DNA from: Argopecten irradians | Lineage: Eukaryota; Mollusca; Bivalvia; Pectinida; Pectinidae | Length of the DNA stretch: 64,000 bases | NCBI RefSeq assembly: GCF_041381155.1 | Contig: NC_091147.1 | Coordinates: forward strand, 37,078,053 to 37,142,052 | Direction of reading: 5' to 3' | Made by a program: the position numbers and the translations under genes | The notes under the pieces: generated by a model | The model's input: only the letters and a program-made list of their open reading frames with translations | What the model was told of the DNA's origin: nothing | The model's database searches: none | Part shown: positions 9,001 to 48,800 of the stretch, piece by piece | How positions within the stretch are numbered: the stretch's first letter is position 1 | Layout: each line of letters opens with the position of its first letter

Positions 9001-9024
9001 CCCCCCCCCCCCCCCCCCCCCCCC
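9001..9024. repeat. Poly-C run of 24
   Basis: Twenty-four consecutive C after GAGTGAGAA. A long homopolymer of this kind is a likely site of length error and can form an i-motif or G-quadruplex. Confidence 0.95.
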
Positions 9025-20600: not shown

Positions 20601-21585
20601 GAACTTCTTTTGAAATGGAAATCGCGAAAGTTTTTTTTACAGAATATGGAGCGTCCGGAAAATCTAGTAATATATAATTTGTCTGATTTTTTTACTACAA
20701 TTCAAATATTAACAATTTTTATATATAAGCAGAACACTGCATAACTGTTCTGAATTTAATTGGTTTATATATTTGGCTTTTGAAAATCACCAGCAAATAA
20801 AATATGGAAGAAAAACATCTGATAGAAACATTCAGTAAACCTAATATCTTATCGACATTTTTTCACTTTTCTTACCTAAATTGTAACTTTTATTTCTGTG
20901 CTTTACTTTGACGATTCTGAAAAGAAAACCCGTTAATTGTAAAAAAATTATAATTTTGCCTAAGGTGAAAGATTCCGTCAGTATACAATTGTTGAACAAT
21001 TAATTGATACAGATTGAGGTAGGAGATTTACACTAAAATTTCCCTGAATAAGCCGCTATCGTTCATATTAAATCTTATGAACCTGCATTAACATGCCGCA
21101 ATCGTTTTATATTTTAAATGTTATAACACGCAGAAAATATTCAATCGATCTACGCAATCGTTTTACTTTTTAATGTTAAAACAAGCAGAAAATATCTTGT
21201 TAATCTGCCGTTGTCGTTATAAATATATCGGTTTATTTTTTTTTCTAATGTACATAAAAAACATTTCTGTTTCATAAATGATAAGGTAATACTCAGCTCA
21301 GCGATATGTTTAATAATGAAATAATAAGTGTTGGTATGAAATAATTCAAAATCCCAAGTAAAACCTGATTTTTAAAAAAAAACTACACTACACTGTCTTT
21401 GCAAATTAGAGTTGCATCCCTTGTGGACAGGTGTCCATTGTGACTTCATTATTTTTAAGACCAAATTATTTACCTCGTTTACTTTTTAAGATGTGGTAAT
21501 ACAAATAGCATATGCATATATAGAATATCTTAGTTGTAGAAAAAGAAAATTATCGCGAATATTTTAACATTTTAACATTGTATCC

Positions 21586-21827
21586 TTACCGCTTTTTCTT
21601 TTCCCTGCGGCATGCAGATTTGAAATCTTCACATGTGAGATCCCTAAGGAATCTCCGCGTGTACATCAAGTACGCGAAGGTGGCAGCCATCCCAATAGCA
21701 GTGAGCCAGAAGAAGACGAACCAGGGGATGTTTGGGGGGTACTCAAAGAACGTGATGTATCTCTCCGTAGTGGTTGTTGTTGGTATAGTAGTTGTTGTGT
21801 AAACAACGACAGCAACATTTGCTGTAC
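21586..21827 (-). CDS. Cadherin-like gene exon 16 (stalk, membrane helix, tail, stop)
   Basis: Acceptor TTACAG|GTACAGC, then 80 codons including TAA at 21588-21586. It encodes the last strand, a Thr-rich O-glycosylation-like stalk, WFVFFWLTAIGMAATFAYLM as membrane helix, and a short basic tail with two Cys (833, 840). A candidate AATAAA lies at 21237-21232 on the minus strand, about 350 nt downstream. Confidence 0.85.
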
Positions 21828-24800
21828 CTGTAAATAAATTCATAAATGAAGGATAGAAGAAGGATAACTATTGCCATTATTATTTAGTTATTTTTGGAAC
21901 GAAATGATATACATCAGAGGAATTAACTTAAAACATATAATAAAGCTAGAGTTGATGTATGTTCAGGTTTAAATGCCATATACGGTATATCCCCCAACAG
22001 CATTTCAGGAAAATATGACCATCACGTTTTAATTCATTCATTTATTCTGGATAAATAATTAAAGATAAATGATTACGATGCAATGAAATAAATGTTTGCA
22101 GTTCAACAAATAGAAAATGATGAGCGAGAACAAATGTATGTCACTATCGACTTGATGAAAATATTAGAAGAAAAAATATCAACATTAGGCCTAATATTTT
22201 TTGACAAGATCGAATCATAAACTGCGTCCCAAAAATCTTCCGTAGACTATGTCCTATATGGAATGAAATACTGATTTTGCATGCACCAAAAGCAAAATGA
22301 ATTATCATATATTATTTGTTTTTGTATTTGTTAGAAAAGTACATTGTATACACACACGGGTAAACACCAATTATTGCTCAAATGTATCGTTTGTACTCTG
22401 TCAGCGGTGGAGCATCTTTAAGACATCTGATTTCATTTGATTGATATCTGGTTGCCGTAGTGACCATCTTTAAGATATACTTATTTAAGCATTTAACAAA
22501 CACCGGAGATAAAAATATAATAAGTTGATAATAATATAAGACTCTTTCAAATCTGGATATGAAGGATAGGGATATTCTACCCGAAGGTCACAAAATGCAG
22601 TAAAACCCGCGAGTGTTTTGCAATATTTTGTGATCCCGAGGGTAGAATATCCCTATCTTTCACATCCACTTATGAAAGAGTATTTTTCTTTCATACCTCA
22701 ACGTTTAATTGCAATTTTACAACTAAATATCCCGCCATTTTGAAATAAATTCGAAGAAATCCACGACTAGAAATCAATTTTCCATACATGAAAAATTACG
22801 TGATATTTTCAACCCAAATTCCGTTGTTTTTATCTTTTATAGTAAAACCAGTCATAGTTTTGAAAAATATCTTAAAATTTTACTGAGAAAAAAAGAGATT
22901 TTGTTGACGCCGTGACGTCATGAGGCTTGAATTTTTTATTGCGTTGGAAGCCATGCAATACAATACAACCTCAGGCGACATGAGTGTATTGCCCTAGACC
23001 AGCCAGTATTACACCCGTAGGTGTATTGCCCAAGACCAGCCAGTATTACACCCGTATGTGTATTGCCCTAGACCAGCCAGTATTACACCGTAGGTGTATT
23101 GCCCTAGACCAGACAGTATTACAACCGTAGGTGTATTGCCCTAGACCAGCCGGTATTACACCCGTAGGTATGAAAAAATACAGATTACGTAATACCTCCG
23201 ACCACACATAAATGTTAGATTTATGATATGATAGTACTTGTAAGGCCACCGTAATCCGTAACTGTGGCAGTAAAAGGGAAGTAACCTCCGTCTCCATAGG
23301 TTGATAGTGGCCTATTGAGGAAGATATTGCCAGTGCCGCTTACTCCAAAGTCAGCGCCGTTTAATCCGGATGTGTCAAGGGAATAAGATATGGCACCTGG
23401 AATACATTCAAATAATATATCAAAGGGATAAGACATTGTACTTGAAATACATAAAATAATGTGTCAAAGGAGTAGGACGAGTAGGACATGTTACTTTGAA
23501 TACCTAAGATTAAATGTGTCAAAGAAGTAGGACGAACAGGACATGGTACCTGGAATATCTAAGTCAAGAGTACTTGTATAATAAAATGTGTCAAAGGAGT
23601 AGGACATGGTACCTGGAATACCTAAGATAAAATGTGTCAAAGGAGTAGGACATGGTACCTGGAATACCTAAGATAAAATGTGTCAAAGGAGTAGGACATG
23701 GTACCTGGAATACATAAGATAAAATGTGTCAAAGGAGTAGGACATGGTACCTGGAATACCTAAGATAAAATGTGTCAAAGGAGTAGGACATGGTACCTGG
23801 AATACCTAAGATAAAATGTGTCAAAGGAGTAGGACATGGTACCTTGAATACCTAAGATAAAATGTGTCAAAGGAGTAGGACATGGTACCTGGAATACATA
23901 AGATAAAATGTGTCAAAGGAGTAGGACATGGCACCAGGAATACCTAAGATAAAATGTGTCAAAGGAGTAGGACATGGTACCTGGAATACCTAAGATAAAA
24001 TGTGTCAAAGGAGTAGGACATGGTACCTGGAATACCTAAGATAAAATGTGTCAAAGGAGTAGGACATGGTACCTGGAATACCTAAGATAAAATGTGTCAA
24101 AGGAGTAGGACATGGCACCTGGAATACCTAAGATAAAATGTGTCAAAGGAGTAGGACATGGTACCTGGAATACCTAAGATAAAATGTGTCAAAGGAGTAG
24201 GACATGGTACCTGGAATACCTAAGATAAAATGTGTCAAAGGAGTAGGACATGGTACCTGGAATACCTAAGATAAAATGTGTCAAAAAGTAGTAGGACATG
24301 GCACCATGGAATACCTAAGATAAAATGTGTCAAAGGAGTAGGACATGGTACCTTGAATATATAAGATAAAATGTGTCAAAGGAGTAGGACATGGTACCTG
24401 GAATACATACTAAGATAAAATGTGTCAAAGGAGTAGGACATGGTACCTGGAATACCTAAGATAAAATGTGTCAAAGGAGTAGGACATGGTACCATGGAAT
24501 ACCTAAGATAAAATGTGTCAAAGGAGTAGGACATGGTACCTGGAATACCTAAGATAAAATGTGTCAAAGGAGTAGGACATGGTACCTTGAATACCTAAGA
24601 TAAAATGTGTCAAAGGAGTAGGACATGGTACCTTGAATACCTAAGATAAAATGTGTCAAAGGAGTAGGACATGGTACCTGGAATACCTAAGATAAAATGT
24701 GTCAAAGGAGTATAAACAAGGTACCTTGAATACCTAAGATAAAATGTGTCAAAGGAGTAGGACATGGTACCTGGAATACCTAAGATAAAATGTGTCAAAG

Positions 24801-27800
24801 GAGTAGGACATGGTACCTTGAATACCTAAGATAAAATGTGTCAAAGGAGTAGGACATGGTACATGGAATACATAAGATAAAATGTGTCAAAGGAGTAGGA
24901 CATGGTACCTTGAATATCTAAGATAAAATGTGTCAAAGGAGTAGGACATGGTACCTTGAATACCTAAGATAAAATGTGTCAAAGGAGTAGGACATGGTAC
25001 CTGGAATACTAAGATATAAAAATGTGTCAAAGGAGTAGGACATGGTACATGGAATACCTAAGATAAAATGTGTCAAAGGAGTAGGACATGGTACCTGGAA
25101 TACCTAAGATAAAATGTGTCAAAGGAGTAGGACATGGTACCTGGAATACCTAAGATAAAATGTGTCAAAGGAGTAGGACATGGTACCTGGAATACCTAAG
25201 ATAAAATGTGTCAAAGGAGTAGGACATGGTACCTGGAATACCTAAGATAAAATGTGTCAAAGGAGTAGGACATGGTACCTGGAATACCTAAGATAAAATG
25301 TGTCAAAGGAGTAGGAGGACATGGTACCTGGAATACCTAAGATAAAATGTGTCAAAGGAGTAGGACATGGTACCTGGAATACCTAAGATAAAATGTGTCA
25401 AAGGAGTAGGACATGGTACCTGGAATACCTAAGATAAAATGTGTCAAAGGAGTAGGACATGGTACCTGGAATACCTAAGATAAAATGTGTCAAAGGAGTA
25501 GGACATGGTACCTGGAATACCTAAGATAAAATGTGTCAAAGGAGTAGGACATGGTACCTGGAATACCTAAGATAAAATGTGTCAAAGGAGTAGGACATGG
25601 TACCTGGAATACCTAAGATAAAATGTGTCAAAGGAGTAGGACATGGTACCTGGAATACCTAAGATAAAATGTGTCAAAGGAGTAGGACATGGTACCTTGA
25701 ATACCTAAGATAAAATGTGTCAAAGGAGTAGGACATGGTACCTGGAATACCTAAGATAAAATGTGTCAAAGGAGTAGGACATGGTACATGGAATACCTAA
25801 GATAAAATGTGTCAAAGGAGTAGGACATGGTACCTGGAATATATAAGATAAAATGTGTCAAAGGAGTAGGACATGGTACCTGGAATACCTAAGATAAAAT
25901 GTGTCAAAGGAGTAGGACATGGTACCTGGAATACCTAAGATATAAAATGTGTCAAAGGAGTAGGACATGGTACATGGAATACCTAAGATAAAATGTGTCA
26001 AAGGAGTAGGACATGGTACTGGAATACCTAAGATAAAATGTGTCAAAGGAGTAGGACATGGTACTGGAATACCTAAGATAAAATGTGTCAAAGGAGTAGG
26101 ACATGGTACCTGGAATACCTAGATAAAGATAAAATGTGTCAAAGTAATAATGTCAAAGGAGTAGGACATGGTACATGGAATACCTAAGATAAAATGTGTC
26201 AAAGGAGTAGGACATGGTACCTGGAATACATAAGATAAAATGTGTCAAAGGAGTAGGACATGGTACCTGGAATACCTAAGATAAAATGTGTCAAAGGAGT
26301 AGGACATGGTACCTGGAATACCTAAGATAAAATGTGTCAAAGGAGTAGGACATGGTACCTGGAATACCTAAGATAAAATGTGTCAAAGGAGTAGGACATG
26401 GTACCTGGAATACCTAAGATAAAATGTGTCAAAGGAGTAGGACATGGTACCTGGAATACCTAAGATAAAATGTGTCAAAGGAGTAGGACATGGTACATGG
26501 AATACCTAAGATAAAATGTGTCAAAGGAGTAGGACATGGTACATGGAATACCTAAGATAAAATGTGTCAAAGGAGTAGGACATGGTACATGGAATACCTA
26601 AGATAAAATGTGTCAAAGGAGTAGGACATGGTACATGGAATACCTAAGATAAAATGTGTCAAAGGAGTAGGACATGGTACCTGGAATACCTAAGATAAAA
26701 TGTGTCAAAGGAGTAGGACATGGTACCTGGAATACCTAAGATAAAATGTGTCAAAGGAGTAGGACATGGTACCTGGAATACCTAAGATAAAATGTGTCAA
26801 AGGAGTAGGACATGGTACCTGGAATACCTAAGATATAAAATGTGTCAAAGGAGTATGGACATGGTACCTTGAATACCTAAGATAAAATGTGTCAAAGGAG
26901 TAGGACATGGTACATTGAATACCTAAGATAAAATGTGTCAAAGGAGTAGGACATGGTACATGGAATACCTAAGATAAAATGTGTCAAAGGAGTAGGACAT
27001 GGTACCTGGAATACCTAAGATAAAATGTGTCAAAGGAGTAGGACATGGTACATGGAATACCTAAGATAAAATGTGTCAAAGGAGTAGGACATGGTACCTT
27101 GAATACCTAAGATAAAATGTGTCAAAGGAGTAGGACATGGTACCTGGAATACCTAAGATAAAATGTGTCAAAGGAGTAGGACATGGTACCTGGAATACCT
27201 AAGATAAAATGTGTCAAAGGAGTAGGACATGGTACCTGGAATACCTAAGATAAAATGTGTCAAAGGAGTAGGACATGGTACCTGGAATACCTAAGATAAA
27301 ATGTGTCAAAGGAGTAGGACATGGTACCTGGAATACCTAAGATAAAATGTGTCAAAGGAGTAGGACATGGTACCTGGAATACCTAAGATAAAATGTGTCA
27401 AAGGAGTAGGACATGGTACCTGGAATACCTAAGATAAAATGTGTCAAAGGAGTAGGACATGGTACCTTGAATACCTAAGATAAAATGTGTCAAAGGAGTA
27501 GGACATGGTACCTGGAATACCTAAGATAAAATGTGTCAAAGGAGTAGGACATGGTACCTGGAATACCTAAGATAAAATGTGTCAAAGGAGTAGGACATGG
27601 TACCTGGAATACCTAAGATAAAATGTGTCAAAGGAGTAGGACATGGTACCTGGAATACCTAAGATAAAATGTGTCAAAGGAGTAGGACATGGTACCTGGA
27701 ATACCTAAGATAAAATGTGTCAAAGGAGTAGGACGAGTAGGACATGGTAACTGGAATACCTAAGATAAAATGTGTCAAAGGAGTAGGACATGGTACCTGG

Positions 27801-30800
27801 AATACCTAAGATAAAATGTGTCAAAGGAGTAGGACATGGTACCTGGAATACCTAAGATAAAATGTGTCAAAGAAGTAGGACAAGGTACCTTGAATACCTA
27901 AGATAAAATGTGTCAAAGGAGTAGGACATGGTACCTTGAATACCTAAGATAAAATGTGTCAAAGGAGTAGGACATGGTACCTGGAATACCTAAGATAAAA
28001 TGTGTCAAAGGAGTAGGACATGGTACCTGGAATACCTAAGATAAAATGTGTCAAAGGAGTAGGACATGGTACATGGAATACCTAAGATAAAATGTGTCAA
28101 AGGAGTAGGACATGGTACCTGGAATACCTAAGATAAAATGTGTCAAAGGAGTAGGACATGGTACCTGGAATACCTAAGATAAAATGTGTCAAAGGAGTAG
28201 GACATGGTACCTGGAATACCTAAGATAAAATGTGTCAAAGGAGTAGGACATGGTACCTGGAATACCTAAGATAAAATGTGTCAAAGGAGTAGGACATGGT
28301 ACCTGGAATACCTAAGATAAAATGTGTCAAAGGAGTAGGACATGGTACCTGGAATACCTAAGATAAAATGTGTCAAAGGAGTAGGACATGGTACCTGAAT
28401 ACCTAAGATAAAATGTGTCAAAGGAGTAGGACATGGTACCTGGAATACCTAAGATAAAATGTGTCAAAGGAGTAGGACATGGTACCTGGAATACCTAAGA
28501 TAAAATGTGTCAAAGGAGTAGGACATGGTACCTTGAATACCTAAGATAAAATGTGTCAAAGGAGTAGGACATGGTACCTGGAATACCTAAGATAAAATGT
28601 GTCAAAGGAGTAGGACATGGTACCTGGAATACCTAAGATAAAATGTGTCAAAGGAGTAGGACATGGTACCTGGAATACCTAAGATAAAATGTGTCAAAGG
28701 AGTAGGACATGGTACCTGGAATACCTAAGATAAAATGTGTCAAAGGAGTAGGACATGGTACCTGGAATACCTAAGATAAAATGTGTCAAAGGAGTAGGAC
28801 ATGGTACCTGGAATACCTAAGATAAAATGTGTCAAAGGAGTAGGACATGGCACCAGGAATACCTAAGATAAAATGTCTCAAAGGAGTAGGACATGGTACC
28901 TGGAATACCTAAGATAAAATGTGTCAAAGGAGTAGGATATGGTACATGGAATACCTAAGATAAAATGTGTCAAAGGAGTAGGACATGGTACCTGGAATAC
29001 CTAAGATAAAATGTGTCAAAGGAGTAGGACATGGTACCTGGAATACCTAAGATAAAATGTGTCAAAGGAGTAGGACATGGTACATGGAATACCTAAGATA
29101 AAATGTGTCAAAGGAGTAGGACATGGTACCTTGAATACCTAAGATAAAATGTGTCAAAGGAGTAGGACATGGCACCAGGAATACCTAAGATAAAATGTGT
29201 TAAAGGAGTAGTAGGATATGGAACATGAAATACATTAAAATGATGAATCAAAGAGCAGTGCATTATTCTTGAAATACATCAGATAAAAAGTGTCAATTGA
29301 GTAGGATTATGAATGTATGTACCACTGGTTTGATAGTTCACACCATTGCTGTTAAGTTTCATTGTTTTAAAGTGAATAGTCGGGCAAAGAAAACCAGTCT
29401 AAATGCGTTCATTGGCCTTCCAAAAGTTCTCACATATTAATACGACGGTCAAGTTCTGCTTAGTTTCCCAGTTCTGACCATTAAAGTAAAGAAAAGTTGA
29501 AAGCATTGAAAGCGAGGCTGCGTGGAAATGTAACCACGGACATAGTGAGCCGGGAGGACGTTTTAGAATTCCCAAACTTTAAATCAATTTTCTCGTACGC
29601 AGACAGATTTTGACGAGAGATTTTATTTTTCCATTTCATAAGAAATTATACTGGATACATTCACACCATTTTTACCGACTTTAGCCATCCTTGCCCGACT
29701 GTTCACTTTAAGTAAAGTTACTTAGGAGAAGTTGTTATATTCCGACAGCAGACGACAAATAGACATACAGCAAGGGTTATTCCAGTGATGTGAATATTCT
29801 AAAATAACCATTTAAAAATCATTATTTTGAAACTTATCGCAAGATATGCAATATTCTCTCTGAATCAATGGTATTTTGAAATTTTTTGCATTTCATGTAC
29901 TATTCTATCTGAATTGATGATATTTTGAAAGTTATCGTAGGATATGTAATATTCTCTCTGAGTTCATGGTATTTTGAAACTTATCGCAATATATGCCATA
30001 TTCTCTTTGAATTTATGGTATTTAAGCTGCTCGTCAGAAAGCCTTACCATATATTCCTAGATCTCCATCGGTGGCTTCTATATTCCCTATAATGTCGCCA
30101 ACGTTACTATAAATGTTCGTAAAAATAGTGTAATCTAATTCACCGAATGTTGGCACGTGGTCATTGACGTCATTAATTGTTACTATAAGTTGTGTAGTGT
30201 CAGTATATTCTCCGTCTGATACCGTTGCTATGCAGGTCAAAACTGACGCTGTACCAGCAATGTCAAGGTCGTATATATCACTCAAGGTCACATCTGCAGT
30301 GTTTGGATTCATTGCGATTGCCGGACAATCGACACTATACGTGTGTGTATCGCCTGTATCTTGATCTGTTACGGTGAAGCCAGGATTTCCAAAGTTCTCT
30401 CCAGCCTATAATATATACAAGAAAACCTGCCTGAGCGACTACCTCTGTATAAAGACCACCTGCTTATAAAAGTCTCTTTCTTGGAGTCATAAATGGTCAT
30501 TTATAACACAAGTTGACCTGTATATAAAGACAAAATCCTTATAAGACTACGTTACTGTTGGTCCTGGGATTGTATTTTAAACATGATTGACTGTACAGTA
30601 CACCAAATGTGGCTTAATGTCCGTAGTGAATAACATTAAAAGTATGAGGAACGATTTATTCTCAAAAACCCTTATGTATATGATGAATTACGTATGCAAT
30701 AAATATAAATGATCTGCAATGAGTTTCCACTCATATTAGACCTATGATGCAAGTTTTAGCAGCGAAAAATGAAGCAAAAATTGAAACGAGTATCATAAAT

Positions 30801-33800
30801 CTAATATGAAAGGAAACGAATGATAGATTTTGTTATCATATAACTGCAATTCGCAGTAAATAAAGGAAGTAATTACCATGCGTATGAATACTATTAAAAT
30901 GTATTCAGCCAATCACAATACATATAGCTTATATCACATGTGCATTATATATGAAATTTATGAAAATGATAATTCCTCTCGTATACATTAAATACAACAT
31001 AAAATCTGTAATAGTATACAGCCAAAGTTACAGAAATTGCCTGAGGATGGCCAAAAGACTGAAAATTGTAAAAAAAAAAAAAAAAAAAAAAAAAATAGAG
31101 ACATTTGTACTTTTTCATTTGTTTATGTTCCTCTTCTGGAAGACGATTGTTTGAACATACAATGTGAAAGATTACTTCTACATACATTGCCCTCGTTGCC
31201 GTTGATATAATAGATGGTATTTCCAAAGGCTGGTGGTTCGTTGATGTCGATCACATTCACTGTAAAGGTAGGGTAGGAATCCGTGTCCTCTCCGTCTGTT
31301 ACACTGACATCTACCGTGAAACTTTTACTAGCCAAACCCTCATAGTCAATGGTATTGGTTGTTGACGTGGACAATAAACCAGCTAAAACCATAATTCATT
31401 GTTGATGAAATTCTAGAGTCGAAAAATTGTTATGCTCCCAATAAATGAACTTCGTGTGCATATCAAACGTCTTCATATTGATAATAGATTATAGATATTT
31501 CCTTCTTTCTATTTAGATATGCCTTTTTCATTTTAGTTACAACTTTCTTTATTTGAATTCGTCATACACCAATATAATATACAATTAATACAATGGAAAA
31601 TAAAAACACTATTCTAAGACACTTATGTAAATCTATCACCTACATATACTAATGCATTATTGCTGGACAGCTATAGATAATTGTAACTTATGCATTCATT
31701 AAAAATTACTTAAGTTTAATAAACTGCAGAGTATACAGATCTACAAATGTAGTTTGAAGTTAGACAATATAACATACATTGTTTCAATTCAACTTGTTGT
31801 ATGACAGAAATATTTCAGATTAAAAAGTAATTTACCACCACTTATCATTTATTTTATTAATTATTATTTTTATTATTATCATTGTATCATTATTTTTAAT
31901 CATAATTATTATTATTTTTTAATTATTATTTTTATTTCATTTTATTGATTTATTGTAAAAAAAAATCGTTTTTTTTTTCATTTTTTTCCATTTTTTTTTA
32001 TATATAGATAATTAACCAAATAAAATGGTAATAACAATTAGGAAAGAGGAAATAATCAAACCTTACATAATGATGTCTTATAACATGCTAATTGATAAAA
32101 AGGTCGAACACTTACTAGTTGTATCAAACGAAAATACGGAAGCACCTTCGCCAGCTGGAGTGAAGGTGGCGCTATAGGTCAACGGATCAAGGTCAGTGTC
32201 AGCGGCCGACACAAGGTAGATAGAGGTACCTTTGGCGATGTTTTCCATAAATGACAGACTGAATGTTAGCGGTGCAGTCTGAATAACAGGGCCTGAATTT
32301 ATCCCTAGACAGGAAATATAAACAGGATAACGTTATTTAATTTACGAAAAAAAGCACGACTTTTTCTCTGTCTGCACCAATATGTATTTAACATATATCA
32401 GCAACGGTACAAATGTATATCTCACAACAAATTTAGAACAAAATTTTGTGGTTTGGTTTGATGAGATTTTCATGTGGATTCGAATATTCATTAATCAGCA
32501 GTAAATATTTGGCTATGCACATTAGGGAATCGTGACCTGGGGAAATAGCGTGTACTTTTCCGACTAACGAATTTTACACGAATCCTCGTAATTCAACTTT
32601 CGATATGAAATAAAATTCGCCCATAATCCCATCAAATCATATACCATAGTGACCAGTAAGGAATTGTCTTCAATGTAGGCTAAAGATATTTAGATTGGAT
32701 GATTTTTGTGGTATTCAGAGCATTTTAAAATTGATACCCCATTTTCTGGAAATGTGATACAGGGCTTAGTACACAACCTTTCAGTATTTTTAGTTTTTTG
32801 GGGTTTTTTTGGAACCTGTGGGCTACGTAATTGACTCGACAATGTTTTGTTTTCAAGCACATTCTATATTTGCAAATTACATAATTATCTGCCCTTGCGG
32901 GTAGGTATTGAATGTGGCCATATGCTTAGGATCATAACGCTCATAATTTTCAGAAACTATGACGTGAATTTCGCTTACCAATAATGACGTCACTATGGCT
33001 ACCAACCCGCGAGGGAGACAACTCCGTAATATGATAAACCAGATTTTTTTTATATAAGGCCAGGTTCGGGACTTACCAGTAACTATAACAGTCAGCGACA
33101 TTGGCCCGACAGTATTTGTCCCGTCAGAGATTGTGACGTATACATTGTATCCAGGATTAGTTAACATCGATATGTCTTGACTAGTTTGTATTTCACCAAC
33201 TGGAAAAAAACCGATTCGTTTGATTTGTTTCACTTCCTATTCCGTCTTTGCATATTATAGAGTTAGCTCCCTTGCGGGTCGGTATCGATTGTTACGTCAT
33301 TATTTTATGAGCGCAATTCACGTCGTTTACTCTGAAAAGTTTGACGTTACGCTCGCAAACACATGACGTCACAATCAATACCTACCCGCAAGGGCAGATA
33401 ACTATGTAATATGCAAATACAGAATTAACAACCGGAGTCATTGAAGGACATGTTATGTTTTAGGAGTGGAAGGAAAACCAGCGAACCCGGAGAAAAATCA
33501 CCGACTTGCTGTGAATACCTGGAAACTGCCCCCGTGTGATTCAAATTCACGACACAGAGGTGAAGGAAAAAGGTAAATGGTAAGTTTTTGAAATGCTATC
33601 AAAGATACTGTTATAGGTAAAATCTTGTGAAAATCATTCTATTCTTAGTAGATATCTTTATAAGGGGATTTTTAAAACATTGCCCATTTGGAGAACATTT
33701 CGAGTAGAGCCAAAGTTTGACCATTTTTCCTTAAATCACAATCTATACTAGATTCATAACTAATATAACGATTAATACCAGAACATTTTCTATACAAGGT

Positions 33801-36800
33801 TAAGTTTGGTAAAAGTGGCTGAAAATCGTGCATTTTGTACCCTAAAATGAAGGGGTAGGGGTCTCATATGTTGTTATTCATAACTGGTATATTTACAAAA
33901 AATACCACTGGAAAGTAAAGTCTGCAAACATCTATAAATATCAAACACCTCGATAGGAAATTATGGTATAAATCTCTCGTGTATGGGTCAAAATGGCAGA
34001 ATTTGCATATATGCCTTATGACCTCAAATAGTAAATTTCTTTAAAGGTCTTCTACCTTTCCGGAGCAAAAATTACAAGGTTTCTGAAAAAGATTAATAAC
34101 ATAAGAAAATGTATATCGTTGATTTCAGACAAAGTAACAACACCAAACATATGCAAGATTTCCGGCTGAATATATGATACTTTAGAAATCCATTTCGCTG
34201 TTTTGCCGTCTGGCGCAGTGATAGTCAACCATCGCGCGGTATTCAGGACGACGACGGGAAACATAAGACGATGCCCGTTATGAAAATTTACATTTTATTT
34301 ACTTAATTTAATTTTTCAGAAGATTATGATGAGTGTAGTATTAATGGTAAGCTAGTAACTTTTGCGACACTACAACATTACCAATCTCGTTTTACATTCC
34401 CATTTTAAAAATTAAAAGCCGTTTCGGAAAGGTAGTGGGCTTTTAAGACTAACTCTGATTTTGTATTAAAACATTTACAAACTATGTAACGTATTTAAAC
34501 AAAAAACTGGGAAAAAATCATAAAACAAAACGTTATTTATCTGAAATACATCATACAAGACATCACACCAGATGCACAAAGAACACACGCGCGGTTATCT
34601 ATCTGACATACATCACACCAGATACACAAAGAACGCATGTGCGGTTATCTATCGGACATACATCACACCAGATACACAAAGAACACAAGCGGTTATTTAA
34701 CGAACATACACAACACCAGATACATAAATAACACACGTGCGGTTATGTATCGGATATACACAACGCCAGATACACAACGGACACACCTGCGGTTATTTAT
34801 CTGACTTACATCACACCAGGTACACAAATAACACACGTGCGGTTATTTATCGGACATACACAACACCAGATACACAAAGAACAAATGTGCGGTTATTTAT
34901 CTGACTTACATCACACCAGATACACAAATAACACACGTGCGGTTATTTATCTGACTTACATCACACCAGATACACAAATAACACACGTGCGGTTATTTAT
35001 CGGACATACACAACACCAGATACACAAAGAACAAATGTGCGGTTATTTATCTGACTTACATCACATCAGATACACAAATAACATTCGTGCAGTTATTTAT
35101 CGGACATACACAACACCAGATACACAACGAACACACGTGTGGTTATTCATCTGACTTACATCACACCAGATACACAAAAAACACACGTGCGGTTATGTAT
35201 CGGACATACACAACACCAGATACACAAAGAACACACGTACGATTATGTATCGGACATACACAACACCAGATACACAAAGAACACACCTGCGGTTATGTAT
35301 CGGACATACACATCACCAGATACACAAAGAACACACGTGCGGTTATGTATCGGACATACACAACACCAGATACACAAAGAACACATGTGCGGTTATTTAT
35401 CGGACATACACAACACCAGATACACAAAGAACATACGTGCGGTTATGTATCGGACATACACAACACCAGATACACAAAGAACACACGTGCGGTTATATAT
35501 CGGACATACACAACACCAGATACACAAAGAACACACGTACGATTATGTATCGGACATACACAACACCAGATACACAAAGAACACACCTGCGGTTATGTAT
35601 CGGACATACACATCACCAGATACACAAAGAACACACGTGCGGTTATGTATCGGACATACACAACACCAGATACACAAAGAACACACGTACGATTATGTAT
35701 CGGACATACACAACACCAGATACACAAAGAACACACCTGCGGTTATGTATCGGACATACACAACACCAGATACACAAAGAACACATGTGCGGTTATTTAT
35801 CGGACATACACAACACCAGATACACAAAGAACACGCGTGCGGTTATTTATCTGACTCACATCACACCAGATACACAACGAACCCACGTGCGGTTATTTAT
35901 CTGACATATATCCCACCAGATACACAAAGAGCTCACGTGCGGTTATTGTGAACGGACAGATGGCCGTAGAACACGTGGGAGGGTTGAAGGTTATGACGTC
36001 ATTGACGTCAGCATCAGTGGCTGTCACCGTAAACAAACTCGTCCCAATGGCTATGTCTCTTGCAATCGTAGTCTTAGCTGCCAAAATAAAAATGTTTATC
36101 AAAACCTCATATAACAATGCTTTCTTATTTTTCATCTTTGAAAATAGAAACACATCAAACTTTTAAAGATTTTCGCTTGACAAACGTGATGTAACCTGAA
36201 TGTGTGCGATATTGCTGTTATTGATACAGAACATACAGTTAATATCATTTTTATACATGGATTTATATTCCTTGTTATGGATATCAAATTATGATAATAT
36301 TCATATTAGTGATATTAGAAAAAGCGTTGTTATAAAAAATATCATTAACTATAATAATTATTATTTCCATAATTGATAATTATTCAAATTTATCCAAATA
36401 CTTGTACTTAGTTTCTGAATCTTAACCATGGAATTGGAAAAAAACAAAACATTAGTAATGGATAAGCAAAGGGGGGAACAATTCAACTTATCTTATATTT
36501 ACATGTAAGATCATTAAAAGGGAGAACCATTTTGATAAGCCGTTTTCGGGTCCTGTCGTTTGCATTAACGCTAAACATATATTATCATAAATTGATAATA
36601 ACATTTTTTGAAACTTTAGACATAAAAATTATATATTGATAAAACCGGGTATTGTGAGCATAGACTGATTCCCGCCTTATCTTCAGTTACCTCCCTTACG
36701 GAAACTACACATCGGAGTAACAATCGCAACATCTCGGAGAAATTTCCGACAATGTTCGGAAATTTTTCCGAAGATTGTCGGAAATATTTCCGACGATTGT

Positions 36801-39800
36801 CGATAATTTTTCCGATTATTGACGGAAATTTCTCCGAGTTGCTGCGATTGCCTAAATGAAAGGGGCTCCGTCTGGCGGAGAGTAGATAACTAAGGGAAGA
36901 TAATTAGTCTAATGTTAGCAGAAATTACCTGGTAAATTAGTGAATACTGGTGGAACGTTTGAGATGACGTAGACGTAGAAGGTTTCAGTGTCCGAGGATC
37001 CATAGGCGTCGGAACACGTGACATCAAACTCATACTTCTTAGTGGTGACGTAGTCGAAACCAGGGTTCAAAATGTTGTTTATTTCATAGGCTGTTTTTTT
37101 AAAAAGAATAAAACATGTATTTACATGGTAATATAGTAAAGTCTTACTTTCGCCTATTGGCGTGGTAATGAAGTGAAGATTTACTTTCGCCCATTGACGT
37201 CGTAATGAAGTGAAGATTTACTTACGCCCATTGGCGTGGTAATGAAGTGATGACAAACTTGCGCCAATTGGCGTGGTAATGAAGTGATGACAAACTTGCG
37301 CCAATTGGCGTGGTAATGAAGAGAAGACTTACTTTCGCCCATTGGCATGGTAATGCAGTATAGACTTACTTTCGCCCATTGGCGTGTTAATGAATTGCAA
37401 CTATGAATTGGAAAATTAATTACGCCTATTACGAAAAAGAATTGAAGTCTTTCTTCGCCTATTGGTATGATAATCAAACGAAGACATACTTACGCATTTT
37501 GGCGTGATAATGAATAGGACCAATGCATTAAATATTTACTTGCATATTGGCGTGATAAAAAATTGAAGATACATTGAAATCGCGCATATTGACATGTTAA
37601 TGAATTGAAACAATGAATTGCCTGTTGGCGTCATAATGAATTTAAGACTTACTTGCGCCTGTTTGTATGATAGTAAATTCTGGAGCTGCCGCCAGTGTAC
37701 AGCTGGTAACACTATCTACTGGAGAGGCGTCTGAGGTTGTGATGCTATGGAGTAGTGTCTGGGCGGTGAGGTCCTGACTTACAATAACGTAATTCGGAAG
37801 GTTGGTGATATAGATAGGCTGTTAATTACAAAACATCATATTGACTTACAATATTGTGACTCGGAAGGTTGATGATATAGATAGGCTGTTAATTACAAAA
37901 CATCACATTGACTTACAATACTGTAACTCGGAAGGTTTTGATATAAATAGGATGTTAATTACAAAACATTATATTGACTTACAATACTGTAACTCGGAAG
38001 GTTGATGATATAGATAGGCTGTTAATTACAAAACATCACATTGACTTACAATACTGTAACTCGGAAGGTTGATGATATAGATAGGCTGTTAATTACAAAA
38101 CATCACATTGACTTACAATATTGTAACTCGGAAGGTTTTGATATAAATAGGCTGTTAATTACAAAACAGCATATGTGTTCCAACTGACTTTTATAATAAA
38201 ATCAGCCCAGTCTCTCAACATTAAAAACTTTTACCGAGAATTTAGTTGTTATGTTGATCCAGTGATGTCACAAGAGTTTATTGCATTGGTAGTCATTTAT
38301 AATACAACCTCAGACGAGAGTATACTGTATTTTCATATTACAGAGTTATCTGCCCTTGCGTGTAGGTATTGATTGTGACGTCATGTGTTTGCGAGTGTAA
38401 CGTCATACTTTTCGGAGAAAACGACGTGAATTGCGCTCAAAAAACAATGACTTAACAATTGATACCTATCCGCAAGGGAGCTAACTCTGTAACATGCAAA
38501 GATGGAATTGAATATGATAAACCAGTATTGCATCCATATGAGACAAAAAATGATATATACCGAGTCAGTGACGGTTATGGTAAGTACCCTTGTGGTCTGT
38601 GCTCCACATGGATCCTGCACTTGGAACGTTAAAGGGTAGTTGTTAGGTGTTAAAGTATTTATACTTGTTGTCACCGTAACTGTTAAATAAACAGATATAT
38701 TAATTAGCTAATAAATTAATAACTTTGGATTATATTTTTTTTAATTGATGTAAAATCATATCAATTAACATTAAATTTTTATTACTTAATATAAAATTTT
38801 ATTTAATAATATGAATTTTTATTAATTGATATAAATTTAAATTAATAACTTAATTGATTTATTATTTTTTATTAATCAATTAATTTTAATGAATAATAAA
38901 TATTAATTTTAATTATTTAATATAATTTTATTAATTTATGTGTGAATTTATTAATTAATATTAATTTTAATAACTTTAAAATAAACGATATTTCACTAAA
39001 GTTTTAAACGCAAAGGGACGATTGGCGGACTAAATATACATACGTGTGTTCGGATCAAATGCAAATTCAGTGGAAGCTGTCTGCATACTCGCTGTAACAG
39101 GGTCACCATCAGCATCAAACACCTCAAAGACATAGGTTACAAAACCCGTCGGTGATATATCCATTATAGTTGTTGACATGACAGCATTCGTAATGACGGG
39201 TGCTGCATCTACAATAAGCAATATTAACTTTTAGTGTTATTAGGTCCACGTCGAATTAACAGACAGTGTCATTTCTATAAGGTCGAAGAAACCACGAGTA
39301 CCCGGAGAAAAACAACCGACTAGCAGTTAATAGCTGCCAGCTGCTCCACATTGGGTTCGGACAAGCAACCCAGATGTGGGGGCTTGTGGTTATATAACGG
39401 GGCATCTTAACCACTCGTGATCGGCAACCGCAGTAGCCACGTATTCCCCAGTCTCTCGCCGCTGATTGAGAGTCCGGTCCGGTTTTGCTCTGAAGTTCGG
39501 TAAAGCTTTTCATTTGCAGATAGAAACACATCTATATATATATGACGATTTTTTTTTTTTTTTTTTTTTTTTGAGAAAAACATTCTTTATCACACTAAAA
39601 CAACGAAAAATAGAAGGTTAATTGAGATTTTTGGACGCAGCCGTCCATGTTTATTTACCATTTCAACATACCCTCTACCAGTTGCAAACAGCAGTCGGAC
39701 CAGACTCTTATTCGGTATATGTCGTTCAGCGGCGAGAGTCTGGGAAATGCAAGACTACCACCGCGGTGTCTAACACGCAATATACACTTCTTAAGATTTT

Positions 39801-42800
39801 TATACCCAAACATATATGTGTTGGCCCATGTAATTTCGCAAGTTTTCCCCTATCTAAATCTTTACAAACGAAGTATATGGTACTGGTTGCGGCCACAATC
39901 AAATGATGGTACTACAGAAGTGCAAAATGATTTTTAATGCTTTTAATTATTTTCGTTTCCGTTAAAATATGCTGTTTTCCAAAGCGTAAGTAACGTTTTA
40001 ATCTGTTGCAAAATCCTAGTTAGTGTAGGCCCTCTATAATGCTTACATTAAAATGTCTTAGTTTCTTAATTCGTCATTTCTAAAATATCAATTCAGTAAT
40101 GTTTACTTTTTAATATCATCACTTTTTGTTTATCGCTAGGTACTGCCATTATAAGTTGATGCATGATGCTTACTAGGACTTATGACTGCTTGGAATCCAA
40201 ACCGTCTATCCATTGTTGTGCCTTCCGTCCAAGGGTATGTACCGCCAACTGCCACCGCGCCTACAGTAGTCGATGTTTTAAAATTTGGCCCTCCTCCATT
40301 TATTTTATAACTGACCACAGAGTTCCCGGGGGAATACCTGACAATGATCATGTGACTTTAACTACATTGTAATTAATCATCAATGGAATTGTATTACAAC
40401 TAAAAGTTCGGGATATTTTTTTACATAAACTAATAAAAAATGCATGTTGTAATATAGCACAAAATGATTTTCTTTTATAATAACTACTTGGAATTTCTAA
40501 CACGTACATATCACCAAAACATTTAAATAATAAGACAACATACAAAACACTGACTTAAATGTCAGTATCACCAGAACAATTTAATAAACGACATGTAAAA
40601 ATGGTTTATAAATAACATGTAAATATCAAGACAACAATTAAAGCGAATAGTCGGGCAAAGGAAACCAGTCTAAATACGTTCTATGGCCTTCCAAAAGTCC
40701 TTGTATACCATAATGATGGTCAAGTTCTGCTTACGGGGTCCAGTTTTGACCATTGAAATTATCGGGAAACCCCGTGTAAATTTAGCACAGTTCTAAATAT
40801 AAATTCGCCTAACTGTTTGAAAACGGGGCTGCGTGGATATGCGTTAAGAGTGAACTCCACTAATAGCCGGTCGGGAAGACGTATTAGGATTCCCATAATA
40901 TATATTAATTTCTTCGCATACAGAGGGATTTTGATGGGAGATTTTATTTTTCTATTTCAAAAGAAATTATACTGGATATATCAAAACCATTTTTACCGAC
41001 TTAAGCCTTTGTTTGTCTGACTATTCGCTTTAAGCTGTTAAAACGAGACCGACAATATATAGATTAATGTGAATCATACCAGAACAAATAAATGTCAAAA
41101 CGGTAAACACAACATTGAATTTCATGTAAATATCACGATAACGGAAAACTATTAAAACGAGCCACAAAACAATTGCATTAATGTGAAAATCACCATAACA
41201 ATCAAGCTATTAAAACGAGACACAAAACAATTACATTAATGTGGAAATCATCATAACAATCAAGCTATTAAAACGAGACACAAAACAATTACATTAATGT
41301 GGAAATCACCATAACAATCAAGCTATTAAAACCAGACACAAAACAATTACATTAATGTGAAAATCACCATAACAACCAAGCTATTAAAACCAGACACAAA
41401 ACAATTACATTAATGTGAAAATCACCATAACAATCAAGCTATTAAAACGAGACACAAAACAATTACATTAATGTGTAAATCACCATAACAATCAAGCTAT
41501 TAAAACGAGACACAAAACAATTACATTAATGTGAAAATCACCATAACAATCAAGCTATTAAAACCAAACACAAAACAATTACATTAATGTGGAAATCACC
41601 TTAACAATCAAGCTATTAAAACCAGACACAAAACAATTACATTAATGTGGAAATCACCTTAACAATCAAGCTATTAAAACGAGACACAAAACAATTACAT
41701 TAATGTTGAAATCACCATAACAATCAAGCTATTAAAAAAAGACACAAAATAATTACATTAATGTGAAAATCACCATAACAATCAAGCTATTAAAACCAGA
41801 CACAAAACAATTACATTAATGTGAAAATCACCATAACAATCAAGCTATTAAAACCAGACACAAACAATTACATTAATGTGAAAATCACCATAACAATCAA
41901 GCTATTAAAACGAGACACAAAACAATTACATTAATGTGGAAATCACCATAACAATCAAGCTATTAAAACGAGACACAAAACAATTACATTAATGTGGAAA
42001 TCACCATAACAATCCAGCTATTAAAACCAGACACAAAACAATTACATTAATGTGAAAATCACCTTAACAATCAAGCTATTAAAACCAGACACAAAACAAT
42101 TACATTAATGTAGAAATCACCATAACAATCAAGCTATTAAAACCAGACACAAAACAATTACATTAATGTGGAAATCACCATAACAATCAAGCTATTAAAA
42201 CGAGACACAAAACAATTACATTAATGTGGAAATCACCATAACAATCAAGCTATTAAAACGAGACACAAAACAATTACATTAATGTGAAAATCACCATAAT
42301 AATCAAGCTATTAAAACGAGACACAAAACAATTACATTAATGTGGAAATCACCATAACAATCAAGCTATAAAAACGAGCCACAAAACAATTACATTAATG
42401 TGGAAATCACCACAACATTCAAGCTATTAAAACGAGACACAAAACAATTACATTAATGTGAAAATCACCATAACGATCAAGCTATTAAAACGAGACACAA
42501 AACAATTACATTAATGTGAAATCACCATAACAATCAAGCTATTAAAACCAGACACAAAACAATTACATTAATGTGAAAATCACCATAACAATCAAGCTAT
42601 TAAAACCAGACACAAAATAATTACATTAATGTGGAAATCACCATAACAATCAAGCTATTAAAACCAGACACAAAACAATTACATTAATGTGGAAATCATC
42701 ATAACAATCAAGCTATGAAAACCAGACACAAAACAATGAGTTGCATGTACGTAAATATATCTCGTACTTACCAGCCTACAATATCACCTGCCAGAACCGG

Positions 42801-45800
42801 AATTCCATCAGCGAATGTATCCGTATTGTCACCTGTAGCTAAAACAAAAATCAACAGACAGTCGTTGAAATAATGAAATAAAATGAAAACAAACACACAA
42901 AGAAAAAAAAAGAAAATCTAATCGTAACGGGCATTTAATCCTCAATCAATCCAAACTCGTATTTCATTAAGGTCAAAATTTCTGTTTAACGTCTAAATTG
43001 TGATTTTGTATGTACATGTACCATCTTTTTTGGATTCACCCGATTCTGATTGCTAAATTTCCAGTCCTTTTAAATGATTGAGAAGTAGTTGGTGTTTTGA
43101 GTTTTTGACAAATGATCTCCTAATTAGTTATCACTCTGTAAAATTTACAAGTTGTATGTTTTACTTATTCTAATTTTATCAGAACTTTTATTTTCTAGAT
43201 GGAGTGTATGCGAAGAACGTAGGAGCATTCATCCATGATATTCAAAGGGGTTACTCTCACTGACGTTATATACATCCCTCGAATATCTCGTAGTAAAACT
43301 GGGGGCAGTTCAGAAGAAAATATACTGACACATCACAGACCTGCAGATACTTTCTTTGGTGATTGTAGCGAGTGCGTCTGCTAAGTTTAAAGCCACAAAT
43401 AATTGACTGTAACAATGACCATATTCATGACGTCGGGAAGGGAGATAAATATAATTAAACAAAATGATTACTAGTATTGATCAAATTCTTGATTTGTTTT
43501 GGTGGTGGTTTTTTTTTTTTTTTTTTTTTTTTTTAAGAACAGTTTCGGTCATATGTGTTGTGATCAAATGACACATTAAGACAGGCATTTAACCTAGAAG
43601 ACAAGTGTTGTGATTATCTGATCACAGCAGGTGCTGTTTTCTTCGAATTTATTTTTTTTAAATGGGAGTGGGTATTATTGTTGTAAAATTATAATAAAAC
43701 GTCGAGATATAAGGAAACTTACATTGATATTCTATCTTAGTATCACGAAATGTTGTTAAGCACTCGGCAAGCCTCAGGTTTTACAACATTTTGTGACATG
43801 TGGGTAGAATATCCCTATCCTTCATATACACACATGAAAGAGTCTGATAGTCTGTAACAATCCTAACCTAGGCTATCTTGACACGAGCTATCGCATTGCG
43901 ATCGCATTACAGACTTGAAAGACGATGCAGTTTAACCTGAGTATTGTTTGAATTAGTGTTATATAAAATTTTCATCTTCATGAGTGGTTTGGTAGTCGAC
44001 ACATTTTAACTTGCATTTTTTTTAAAACCCCACTACCTTTCAAAAACGGTTTTTAATTTTTAAAATGGGAACGTATAACGAGATCGATAATTTTGTAGAG
44101 CCGCAAAAAATATCAACTTTCCGTTAATACTACATTGAAACAACAATGAAATGAAACTCCGCAGTTATCATATATTATGCAGGAAATCATGCATATGTTT
44201 GGTGTTGTCACCTTATCTTAGGTCGTCGATTTGTATTTTCTTATCTTATTAATATTATTAAGAAACATGTAAATTTTTCTCCAGAAAGGTAGTGGGCCTT
44301 TAAGATTAATGCTACATAGAATTTTCATCTTCATGAGTGGTTTAGTAGTCGACACAATCTAACATGCAGTATTGTTACGTCTATCGCTGTATAGTATTGT
44401 TACCTGTATTAGTTACTTGGTAGTCGACGTAGCTTTACCTGCGGTATTGTTAACATTAGTAGAAAAATAATAAATACAATTTTCACCTGCACGAGTGATT
44501 TCGGAGTGGATGCAATTTAGTCTGCGTTACTTTTACGTCTAGTATTTGATTGATCATTACCTACAGGAATGGTTTTGCATAGGAGACGATGCAGGTTTAT
44601 TCAAAATTAGTCTAATGAAATGCATTTTACCTGCAGTATTGGTTTTGGAGACGATGCAGTTTAACCTGCATTTTTACTATTAATGCTATAAAATATCATT
44701 TTACCTGCAGGAATCGTTTGGCACAAGATGCAGTTTAACCTGATTTTTACGATTAGTGTTTTAAATATCATTTTACCTGTAGGAGTGGTTTGATGTTGTC
44801 CTATCAACTCATAGGTCCCTCCAACGTCTCTCCAGACTTGAAAAAACACTATGTCAACAACTTGAGCGTGATAAATCCATTGATAGATAACGCCACAGTC
44901 ACATGTTACTGCATGATCGGTCCACAGGCTCATTCCTATAGGGTAACATTTTATATTTATTTTAGTTTTGAAGCAATATACACTTCTTTCAGCCTAACTA
45001 TCATACATTCATTTAAGCATGATTGTCACTGTTTTTTTAACTTCATCGGGGTATGAAAGAAATTTTAAGCAAACAAAATTCATTTTACCATGATAACATG
45101 AAATACATTAAAACGTACGATTCCTTTGATTCGCCAAAGAATTTTTCTCCACAGTTGTATGAAGAAAAAAAAGTATCTGCCAATCAGAAAGACATATTTA
45201 GTATGAAAACAAATATGCATGTATACCGCAATGAAGTAAAATACAGAGCGTCTTAAGTTTTGAGTTCATGCAGATAATTAGCTCATACCAATACAGAAAA
45301 TAAATATCGAATCCACAAAACTGTGTAAGACAGCATAGGAAGATTATTTCTAAACTACCTTAATTGGCAACCATAATGATGAAATTATGAATAAATATTT
45401 AATTTACGATAGATACCAATATTTGGTATTGTAATATTTCCTGTTTACATGTATAACAGTGTCTGTGATAAGTTGAAGCATATCACATGACAGGAAAATA
45501 AAACATCGTATTTCCCTCGGGGTTGAGACATTGTATTTCCCTGGGGCGCGTGCCCCTATGGTGACCGCCCTTCTTTCACACGGAGTTATCGCCCATACCG
45601 ACTGTACAATAATGACGGACGAAGAGTAAAACTAAATTTTTACTCATCGCAAGTTTAAGTAATATCTAACCCAGAGTAGCCAATCGTGAATTTTCGGCAT
45701 TATAAACAATGCATGCCCCCGATGGAAGTGTGTCATGAAGGTTTATTTACCCTAGGATGTAATATTTCCCTCGGGCAAGCCCTCGGAAAATATAACACTT

Positions 45801-48800
45801 TTGAATTCGGGTTCATATAACACTGTCACCGGGGCCATAAATGCATAATATATACTGTATCAGCTGTTATGTATGTGAATATAGTTATTACTCAACTTAC
45901 CCACTTGATTGAAGTCTCGTGTGTTGCGAGTTAGTGGCGTGTCATCTCCAACATACGCCCCAGCTGTACAAGGAGCACCTGGGCAGGTAAAAATAAGGAT
46001 GTGCATAGTGGCTAACAACTGGTTTTTCTTGTACAAAATAAACGTTATTTTGGTCACTAATTTGCAAATTGACAAATGCCATTAAAGCAGCGCCCTCAAG
46101 CGTGATTTCTGGACGAATATCTTTACTATCTCTGTTACACTACCTATATGAATTACTTTTTTAATGTTTTGTCTTACAAAAAAAATAAAGTTTTGATACA
46201 AATACGTCAAATAAAAAATAGAAAAGCAGTTTTTCTACATAAATGTTGCGGAAACTATATTTTCTGAAACAAATTCTTTCAATGAAATACAATACACAAG
46301 TAATCAGTATAATATGATGATTTAAAGTACATTTAACAATAACTGGATACGAAACATGTTTGAATTAAAATAAAATAATGGAGGAAAAAAGGCCATTGAT
46401 GTATAATTGTAAACATATTTTATTGGACACGACTGTCATTTTGGGCGACCTTTTTTTTTTTGGGGGGGGGGGGGGTGGTTGAAGGTAATCTTCTTTTTGT
46501 TTTTATTTATCGCAGTAAGAAACGACATTCCTGTCATTGTGATACCTCCATTGTCATTAAAAAAAGAAAGTTCATCCAAGTTTATGCAAATTTGAATTGT
46601 AATCAGTGGAATGAAACTGTTCAGAATAAGGTTCGTTAGAATTTTTGTAGACTATTATATCTTCCTTTGTAATGCTTTCTGAATAGATAAGGTACTTTTA
46701 AATCATTTTCATGTTTGATTTTACTGATATTCATCATATCTTATATGACTGAAGGGGAAATTACTTTAGCTTCCTGCTTCGTAGACAAACAATTGTATTT
46801 AAATGTCTAGTTTGAATGCACAATATGTTGTCTAACGCGGTAGTCAATGCCGAATAAAAGAAAACCTGGGATTTAACTATGCTACGACCTTTCTGTCCTG
46901 ACTAGAAGGGGAAGAACATTGTCATTTGACCATGGACTGTCGGCACAGTGGTATTTACACGCACCGCGTCACCTTTACAAATCTACCTATATGGAGTTAA
47001 CTGATTTCCAGTCGCACATGTAGAGAGCAGAAAACTATTGACACATACTAAATACTACGCAATAGTATAAACAACAGTTGAGAAACATCAGAGTCGCGGC
47101 TTTGTACTTCAATATATTTATAGTTATAGAAATGGTTCGATATGTGGCCTGACATCTAAACCTATTGGATAATGATTGCTCTATTATTTGAATTTGCAGG
47201 TGTTATTTTGCTCCAAGTACAACAGTTGTAATATTAAGGCGATAATACTGTACTTCCGGTTATATGCCCTATTTTTACTGGGGGGAAAAAAGAAGAAAAA
47301 AACCGACATCTGACTCAAAAGACTATAAATGTTGTACAGTTTTTTTGTGAATCATAATTTTGTGATAGCATTGTCCTGAGATATCGAAGATTTCATATCG
47401 AGCATTCCATTTGCAGAATCAACTGGTACGAACCCGCTGTATCTGTGATGAACGCGCTGTACCATCCGAACCGAACCGGTACAAGTGGTTCGTTTTCAGA
47501 AGCGTACCACTTGTATCAAAGATGGCGGACCCGAAATTCTTCATTTGTCATCGGAATGTTTTCTTTGTTGAAAAGAAGGCAGAGCGTATTCATATCCGAT
47601 AAAATTACATGGATCGTTAATTTCAATGTGTGCTGAAACTATTAAGGTATTATTTTTATATCCATGTTATCTTTAACATTGTAAATACTTTTATACTCGA
47701 AGCGTATCTTTCATATGGGTGCCGCCATCATGGAAAAAATCTAATCGCGATTCATTTGGCGGTGCCGTATCACTTTAGTGCAACTGGTACGAATCCGCAA
47801 ATGGAACGCACGGATACTCTACAGTGCTTATAGTTTTGTCACTCCGTCTCTGTACATTACAGAGTTACCTCCCTTGTAGATATCAGGTATGACGTTATTG
47901 TTTTGTCTGAAAAGTAAGTACGTTTCGTTCAGAAACACGTGACGTCACAATCAATACCTACACACAAGGGCAGATAACAGAATAGACAAAGAACACAAAG
48001 TATCTCTTAGTTTTAATGAACAACCTGCCCTTGTGTATTTTATTAAGTTGACGGTATAATAGGGATACATAAAAAAAACATAACCCAGTTAGTTAACATC
48101 ATATCAATTTGCGTTGGATACATGCACGTATCAATTCTTACAGATTGTCTATCACGCCTAATTACCACGTAGAAAGTTACTATTACTACACCGCGAGACA
48201 TACAGTGAAATGAACCTATTACACAGGAACGTTTGGTGACGTAACTTCCTTTTAATTAATAGAAATGTTTTAACTCTATAATGGTTGTTAATAAACTTAT
48301 CTTCTTTTTCATTTTAAGAAGCAGATCTTTAAATGCTCGAGAGAGCATAAACGATACCCATAAATTGAACAATAACTGATGTATATTCGTATTAATATGT
48401 GTCTAATTAACACAAAAATGTATATAAAATAATTTAGTTTACTTTTGGTACGTGCACAATCAGAACTATATTCCAAAAAGGGCATAGTGCCGTGGAATTT
48501 TTTTGGGACGCTATTAAATATTTTTGATATTATCATCATGATTTAAAATAAGAAACTCAAACTTTTCAATGGTATTAATGGTGTAAAGTAAGTAACTTTT
48601 TGTAACTTAAGAAAAATACTAATTCGTCTGCTCCTGTTTTTGATAGAGAAAAATTCCATTTGTCGGCGGTGGAGCATCTTTTTAAAAAAAAAAACCCCAT
48701 ATTAACAGTTTAATCGATTTGGACAAAGCCATATTCTGATATCAATTAAAATAAGGATTGTTATATAATTCGTATAGGTGCAAAATCCAAGTTGAAACAA

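Follow-up and report, generated by a model that had tools for sequence, protein, structure and literature searches.

Why should tandem arrays gather at the exon boundaries of one gene, and why should some of them copy the splice junction itself? The question is raised by a minus-strand cadherin-like gene in a stretch of 64,000 nt of Argopecten irradians (NC_091147.1, positions 37,078,053 to 37,142,052; GC content 34%), which was analysed as a whole and is called the window here. A first-pass annotation had placed eight such arrays in this gene and knew of no named system of the kind. In amphioxus, tandem repeats across exon-intron boundaries are named mirages. Our analysis makes it very probable that the arrays are mirages, occurring in several unrelated genes, founded at junctions, expanding into the intron and tolerated as their decoy splice sites go unspliced.

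Arrays at the junctions of the cadherin-like gene

Arrays were called with Tandem Repeats Finder (TRF) and distances were measured against a gene model built on AG/GT ends and phase. TRF finds all eight arrays and the proposed distances hold: the arrays at the donors of exons 3 and 10 and at the acceptor of exon 15 overlap the exon, the one at the exon 8 acceptor ends 1 nt away, and those beyond the donors of exons 14, 4 and 15 begin after 24, 34 and 68 nt. Each unit was then aligned to all junctions, with 1000 80-mers drawn at random from other parts of the window as null. Five arrays are tied to one junction each, well over the null (null maxima 22-29), and four of them truly copy it.

The first of these overlaps the end of exon 3 (44777..44935). 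It is a 74-bp array of 2.3 copies (TRF; 44623..44792) that copies ...CTACAG/GTAAAATG, the slash marking the junction (score 77, null maximum 25). Both extra copies downstream keep the GT, and degenerate units resembling the array were traced by eye back to about 43900. Downstream of the donor of exon 8 (37653..37773) lies a 37-bp array (37126..37652) whose units copy GCGCAA/GTAAGTCTT (score 45, null maximum 22). That it abuts the exon holds in part: TRF covers 37126-37394, and the remainder consists of degenerate 37-bp units which reach back to the exon by eye. The junction probe finds six further copies here, the nearest 283 nt downstream, with the GT kept in 6/6.

The end of exon 10 (35937..36077) is overlapped by 28 copies of a 50-bp unit (34565..35947) copying ...ATAACCGCAC/GTGAGC (score 70, null maximum 29); GT is kept in 20 of the 27 extra copies. 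The largest array begins inside exon 15 (23238..23396) and extends from 23370 to 29211, with about 122 copies of a 46-bp unit plus degenerate exon-proximal copies. It copies the acceptor, TATTCCAG/GTRCCATRTCYTAYTCC (score 56, null maximum 28), and has 118 extra junction-spanning copies, 98 with the AG kept. According to TRF its exon-proximal copies are degenerate (75% match) and its interior is homogeneous (94%).

A fifth array had also been credited with exon sequence and splice site, namely the 67-bp array of 5.9 copies at the exon 8 acceptor (37775..38168). Its alignment (score 58) stops one base short of the intron end, which leaves the final G of the acceptor and the whole exon outside the unit. 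The junction is thus copied by four arrays, not five. The remaining three are intron-only: 27 copies of 58 bp beyond the exon 4 donor (array 41149..42737, exon 42772..42838), four copies of 49 bp beyond the exon 14 donor (29823..30023, exon 30048..30405) and five copies of 37 bp beyond the exon 15 donor (22984..23169). They match their own junction not above the null, or just intronically at the array edge. Unit lengths of the eight arrays (37, 37, 46, 49, 50, 58, 67 and 74 bp) and their sequences differ, which makes separate origins plausible, as had been proposed.

The gene model and its paralogs

All distances depend on the gene model. Its 15 exons (exons 2-16, minus strand) close in one frame of 813 codons followed by a stop, and the joined protein contains a Pfam Cadherin match (E 3.4e-17). 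Thirteen exons were placed via AG/GT ends and phase, among them exons 3, 4, 8, 10, 14 and 15; exon 2 (45901..45978) and exon 16 (21586..21827) prolong the same frame. Exon 16 carries the stop and, by eye, a transmembrane stretch. A protein search of the 846-Mb genome found the closest paralog (C15p) on C15, with exons at 58-71% identity, and remoter paralogs on C7 and C15 (C15b, C15c, C7a and C7b among the five examined). Paralog exons support exons 3 (43-60% identity), 8, 10, 14, 15 and 16. The exon ends and phases of the model recur in the five paralogs wherever the exon was found, with the exception of exon 2, which is without paralog support. This removes the suspicion that boundaries had been fitted to the arrays. 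The model is predicted from sequence, and it might be wrong, or the arrays might be assembly artefacts; we regard this as very unlikely in view of the long frame, the conserved exon ends and phases, and array copies that match at 75-95%, unlike assembler stutter.

Since intron positions and phases are common to the paralogs, these introns are not new acquisitions, and intron gain by tandem duplication was rejected for this reason: wherever the exon was found, the paralogs have the intron too. The same observation bears on a mobile or dispersed satellite inserting at splice junctions, or introner-like elements, which the many intronic arrays of this one genome might suggest. However, the junction-spanning units hold exon sequence of their own gene. 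Moreover, two arrays, that of 37 bp at exon 8 and that of 46 bp at exon 15, were covered by a genome search that skips very common words, and each was found at its own locus only. A mobile source is hence extremely improbable.

Arrays at junctions exceed chance in six related genes

The arrays had been regarded as a peculiarity of one gene, which turned out otherwise: all five paralogs carry their own junction-copying arrays, with units differing from those in the window. Probes of 30 exon and 30 intron bases detect further junction-spanning copies at 14/131 junctions of the six genes, compared with 0/128 exon-interior probes. Intron probes fall in repeats in 62/183 cases, a count that reflects array length and is thus an unfair null for array number. 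In the founder model, arrays were collapsed and founders placed uniformly in 200,000 simulations. It expects 1.77 of 39 arrays to span a junction; 14 were scored, a number reached by 0/200,000 simulations.

Exon 9 of C15b (C15:30758947-30759947; C15b 8947-9947) has junction-copying arrays at both ends, with units of 74 bp at the acceptor and 72 bp at the donor, raising the junction count to 16/133. With this exon corrected and two weak cases left out (C15p exon 4 donor, C7b exon 7 acceptor; 17 arrays with them), 15/39 arrays span a junction where about 1.8 are expected. For the gene in the window the figures are 4/9 and 0.62. The claim of an excess beyond chance is thus borne out. Acceptors and donors are both affected. 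The junction-spanning extra copies, summed over 14 junctions, lie on the intron side without exception (416/416), and GT or AG is kept in 381/416.

Arrays classed as intron-only crowd near junctions as well, with 10/25 lying within 70 nt where 2.8 are expected (P 0.0002); the C15b exon 9 arrays were later recognised among the other 15, where they account for three. Counted over all 72 exon matches to the cadherin-like family, 22 have a TRF array within 60 nt. In 4/6 genes the donor of exon 9 is arrayed, with periods of 30, 48, 52 and 72, through either common descent or recurrence. On C15, about 320 copies of an 18-bp unit (1560001-1565766) stop 58 nt short of exon 3 in the closest paralog.

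The distance analysis excluded arrays with a period <15, an entropy <1.5 or a score <60, and a C15p 18-bp array upstream of the first modelled exon does not count among the 39. C15b exon 16 and C15c exons 7 and 8 were left out of distances, probes, founder model, decoy scoring and the copy-number test (see below); C15c exon 16 was left out of all of these but the distances. The open donor of C15b exon 15 was dropped. C7a exon 8 was left out of the distances only; if it is kept, the C7a array at 13404 lies 150 instead of 754 nt from a donor and is still classed as far.

Junction-copying arrays occur in unrelated genes

From 142 protein-kinase exon matches 39 were taken with 500-nt flanks by a rule that ignores the flanks (no internal stops, open frame <=130 aa). 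An array is present in the stretch for 13/39 and within 60 nt of the exon match for 9/39. Read base by base, 5/39 have a junction-copying array: at donors in L050 (39 bp), L084 (36 bp) and L065 (95 bp, 2.3 copies, near-identical by eye), at acceptors in L053 (46 bp) and L060 (50 bp). After merging, 5/17 kinase arrays span the junction (binomial P 0.004 on a rounded null), and 5 of the remaining 12 stop 70 nt or less from the exon (binomial P 0.03, likewise on a rounded null). Several unrelated genes in this genome therefore have junction-copying arrays, which are not confined to one. Neither in the related genes nor in the kinases are arrays equally frequent at random intronic positions; they are, however, frequent at the junctions of other genes too.

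Birth or retention at exon edges

Taken together, the anatomy of the arrays fits three steps. A small tandem duplication (unit 28-95 bp) spanning an exon-intron boundary, or within about 70 nt of it, would found the array. Slippage or unequal exchange would then grow it into a minisatellite reaching into the intron. Finally, splicing would use the exon-attached copy alone, so that the intron-side copies become decoys; the arrays would be tolerated for this very reason. We infer that birth and expansion, or retention, are favoured at exon edges.

Retention in place of birth is a variant of this explanation and quite possible. Duplications would arise anywhere in introns, and near junctions they would persist: constraint on the exon edge would preserve a master copy, and deletions extending into the splice site would be eliminated. 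Copy numbers suit this idea: the distance to a junction is 70 nt or less in 14/14 arrays with 10 or more copies and in 12/25 smaller ones (Fisher P 0.0006; Mann-Whitney on copy number P 0.0004), so that far arrays are low in copies, as if just junction arrays live long. In the exon 15 array, the copies next to the exon are also the most diverged. Yet arrays without junction copies crowd within 70 nt as well, and the recent-looking kinase array L065 already spans its junction.

A bolder version of founding at junctions would have the splice junction itself drive amplification. Some exon-edge process (transcription, splicing or chromatin) would both found and expand arrays up to about 70 nt away, junction copies would be present at several to ten per cent of junctions (16/133 in the related genes; 5/78 kinase exon ends; 0/24 carrier exon ends), and essentially all large intronic minisatellites would be anchored at junctions. 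To us this version appears rather doubtful.

Decoy splice sites

The six related genes supplied 63 donors and 68 acceptors for a position matrix, with which decoys were scored at 12 junctions, C15b exon 9 and both weak cases excepted. The units hold 7-43 exon bases by ungapped walk, and 0 at two junctions where copies differ by gaps. In 6/12 arrays the majority of decoys equal or outscore the authentic site: the donors of C15p exon 9 (106/115), C15b exon 7 (51/53), C7a exon 9 (9/11) and C7b exon 8 (1/1), the C15c exon 12 acceptor (9/13), and the exon 3 donor in the window (2/2). For the others the counts are 4/12 (C7b exon 9 donor), 1/24 and 0/29 (acceptors of C15p exons 6 and 16) and, in the window, 5/27 (exon 10 donor), 6/118 (exon 15 acceptor) and 0/6 (exon 8 donor). 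As decoys match or exceed authentic scores, strength alone cannot choose the site in several introns, and attachment to the exon must. Going by established exon definition, exon attachment would thus decide the splice site, and splicing would ignore decoys by their position.

Use of the 386 intact decoys at 14 junctions would bring a stop into the message in 370 cases, a frameshift in 4 and an open in-frame insertion in 12. For the nearest intact decoy of each junction the numbers are 10, 1 and 3. These outcomes bear on selection for multiplied splice sites, as backup or regulatory decoys, which had been proposed as a cause. In its favour GT or AG is kept in most decoys (381/416), and at the C15p exon 9 donor nearly all of them equal or surpass the real site. 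However, homogenisation alone would keep sites alike, nearly all intact decoys would insert a stop or shift the frame, and arrays without splice-site copies cluster too (10/25 against 2.8). Selection of this kind is unlikely.

The array at the C15p exon 9 donor has 119 copies of 30 bp (C15:1578655-1582226; C15p 18655-22226). Ten open in-frame decoys there would add decapeptide repeats (GKSPVITKLP-like), and 102/114 intact decoys meet a stop. A coding role of the arrays was rejected, just 12/386 intact decoys inserting an open in-frame stretch, ten of them near this donor.

Points that weaken the case

Several observations count against junction-founded, silently tolerated mirages in unrelated genes. 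Exon use and the silence of decoys are predicted from the sequence. The three open in-frame insertions among the 14 nearest intact decoys mean that decoy use would not always be ruinous. The six cadherin-like genes form one family, and in four of them the array at the exon 9 donor may go back to a single ancient event. Uniform intron age is an assumption of the founder model, which would be too strict if young transposons had inserted into introns, though hardly by a factor of eight. We set the 10-copy threshold with the data already in view, and an array far from any junction (439 nt, period 44) narrowly misses it. Lastly, mitochondrial-carrier exons, the first 12 of 83 matches to pass the kinase rule, gave 0/12 junction-copying arrays with TRF only and 130-nt flanks; one array lies about 50 nt from its match. 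The overall figure for unrelated exons, 5/51, is a rough one from two families, too few to call all gene classes alike.

Other repeats and genes of the window

Within the introns of the cadherin-like gene, a 22/44-bp palindromic repeat (TCGGAAATATTTCCGA; 36734-36837) lies 91 nt beyond the exon 9 donor and, by alignment, is not junction-derived. The stretches 29340-29720 and 40640-41035 are alike, carry inverted ends of the GTGAATAGTCGGGCAAAG type and resemble by eye a non-autonomous transposon pair. A further repeated element with inverted TTGCGGGTAGGTATTGATTGTGACGTCA-like ends, also seen by eye, occurs at 32890-33035, 33260-33420 and 38340-38490.

Further TRF calls are AT-rich stretches and a few arrays beyond the gene, among them seven copies of 141 bp at 9686-10672. 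No TRF array of the window touches the open reading frames (ORFs) of an MFS-type transporter (60262-63872, minus strand; 2/4 ORFs tried match Pfam MFS_1, one below cut-off) or an IgGFc-binding ORF (14037-15338, minus strand). Rfam gave no match at gathering thresholds.

Significance

Mirages in several unrelated mollusc genes would make splice-site choice testable in nature. An intron with more than 100 decoys, most of them scoring at or above the true donor, still needs splicing, so that position and not site strength must decide. The array set also allows one to ask whether tandem duplication is concentrated at exon edges. For gene annotators it is a caution, since decoy junctions may confuse spliced-read alignment.

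Comparison with known systems

Mirages of amphioxus Adh3 are said to have been described by Canestro in 2002. In the available text of PMC3087553 tandem repeats across exon-intron boundaries are reported for amphioxus globins and Adh3, with units of 10-160 bp, regular splicing, homogenised interiors and length instability, and are suspected to be general in cephalochordates; PMC3902484, as far as available, adds PGBD5 and TnC. A named system thus exists. The arrays described here agree with it in a unit that holds the exon end and splice site (donors of exons 3, 8 and 10, acceptor of exon 15), in affecting 5' and 3' boundaries both in the six related genes and in the kinases, in a minisatellite-size unit (28-95 bp), in a homogenised interior with a divergent edge (exon 15 array, 94% versus 75%) and in the presence of decoy splice signals. 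Unlike mirages, the arrays at the exon 8 acceptor and the donors of exons 4, 14 and 15 hold no exon end with splice site. Further differences are the phylum, arrays of up to about 122 copies, several arrays per gene, their spread over unrelated genes, and an excess at or beside junctions that is measured here against intron positions.

Intron gain by tandem duplication is reportedly the subject of Gao and Lynch (2009) and of a potato RdRp study (PMC4974935). Rogers, as cited in the available part of PMC3087553, proposed such gain via tandem duplication of AGGT segments. Both processes involve tandem duplication with splice signals; here, in contrast, no new intron results, positions and phases being common to the paralogs.

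A minisatellite with a 27-bp unit in intron 3 of an abalone TSSK1-like gene (PMC6905558) is likewise a repeat in a mollusc intron; junction copying is not described in the accessible portion of that report. In human segmental-duplication genes, internal tandem repeats average 30-bp units x 4, half of them in coding sequence, which sets them apart from the present arrays; some variable ones lie at exon-intron boundaries and alter gene structure, a point of likeness (PMC2812944, from the text available). Literature searches, in which most subscription journals were not covered and which hence are no proof of absence, turned up no mirage report outside amphioxus. The arrays are thus of a kind already known from a handful of amphioxus genes, as far as the available reports go, and the new part is their scale and their phylum.

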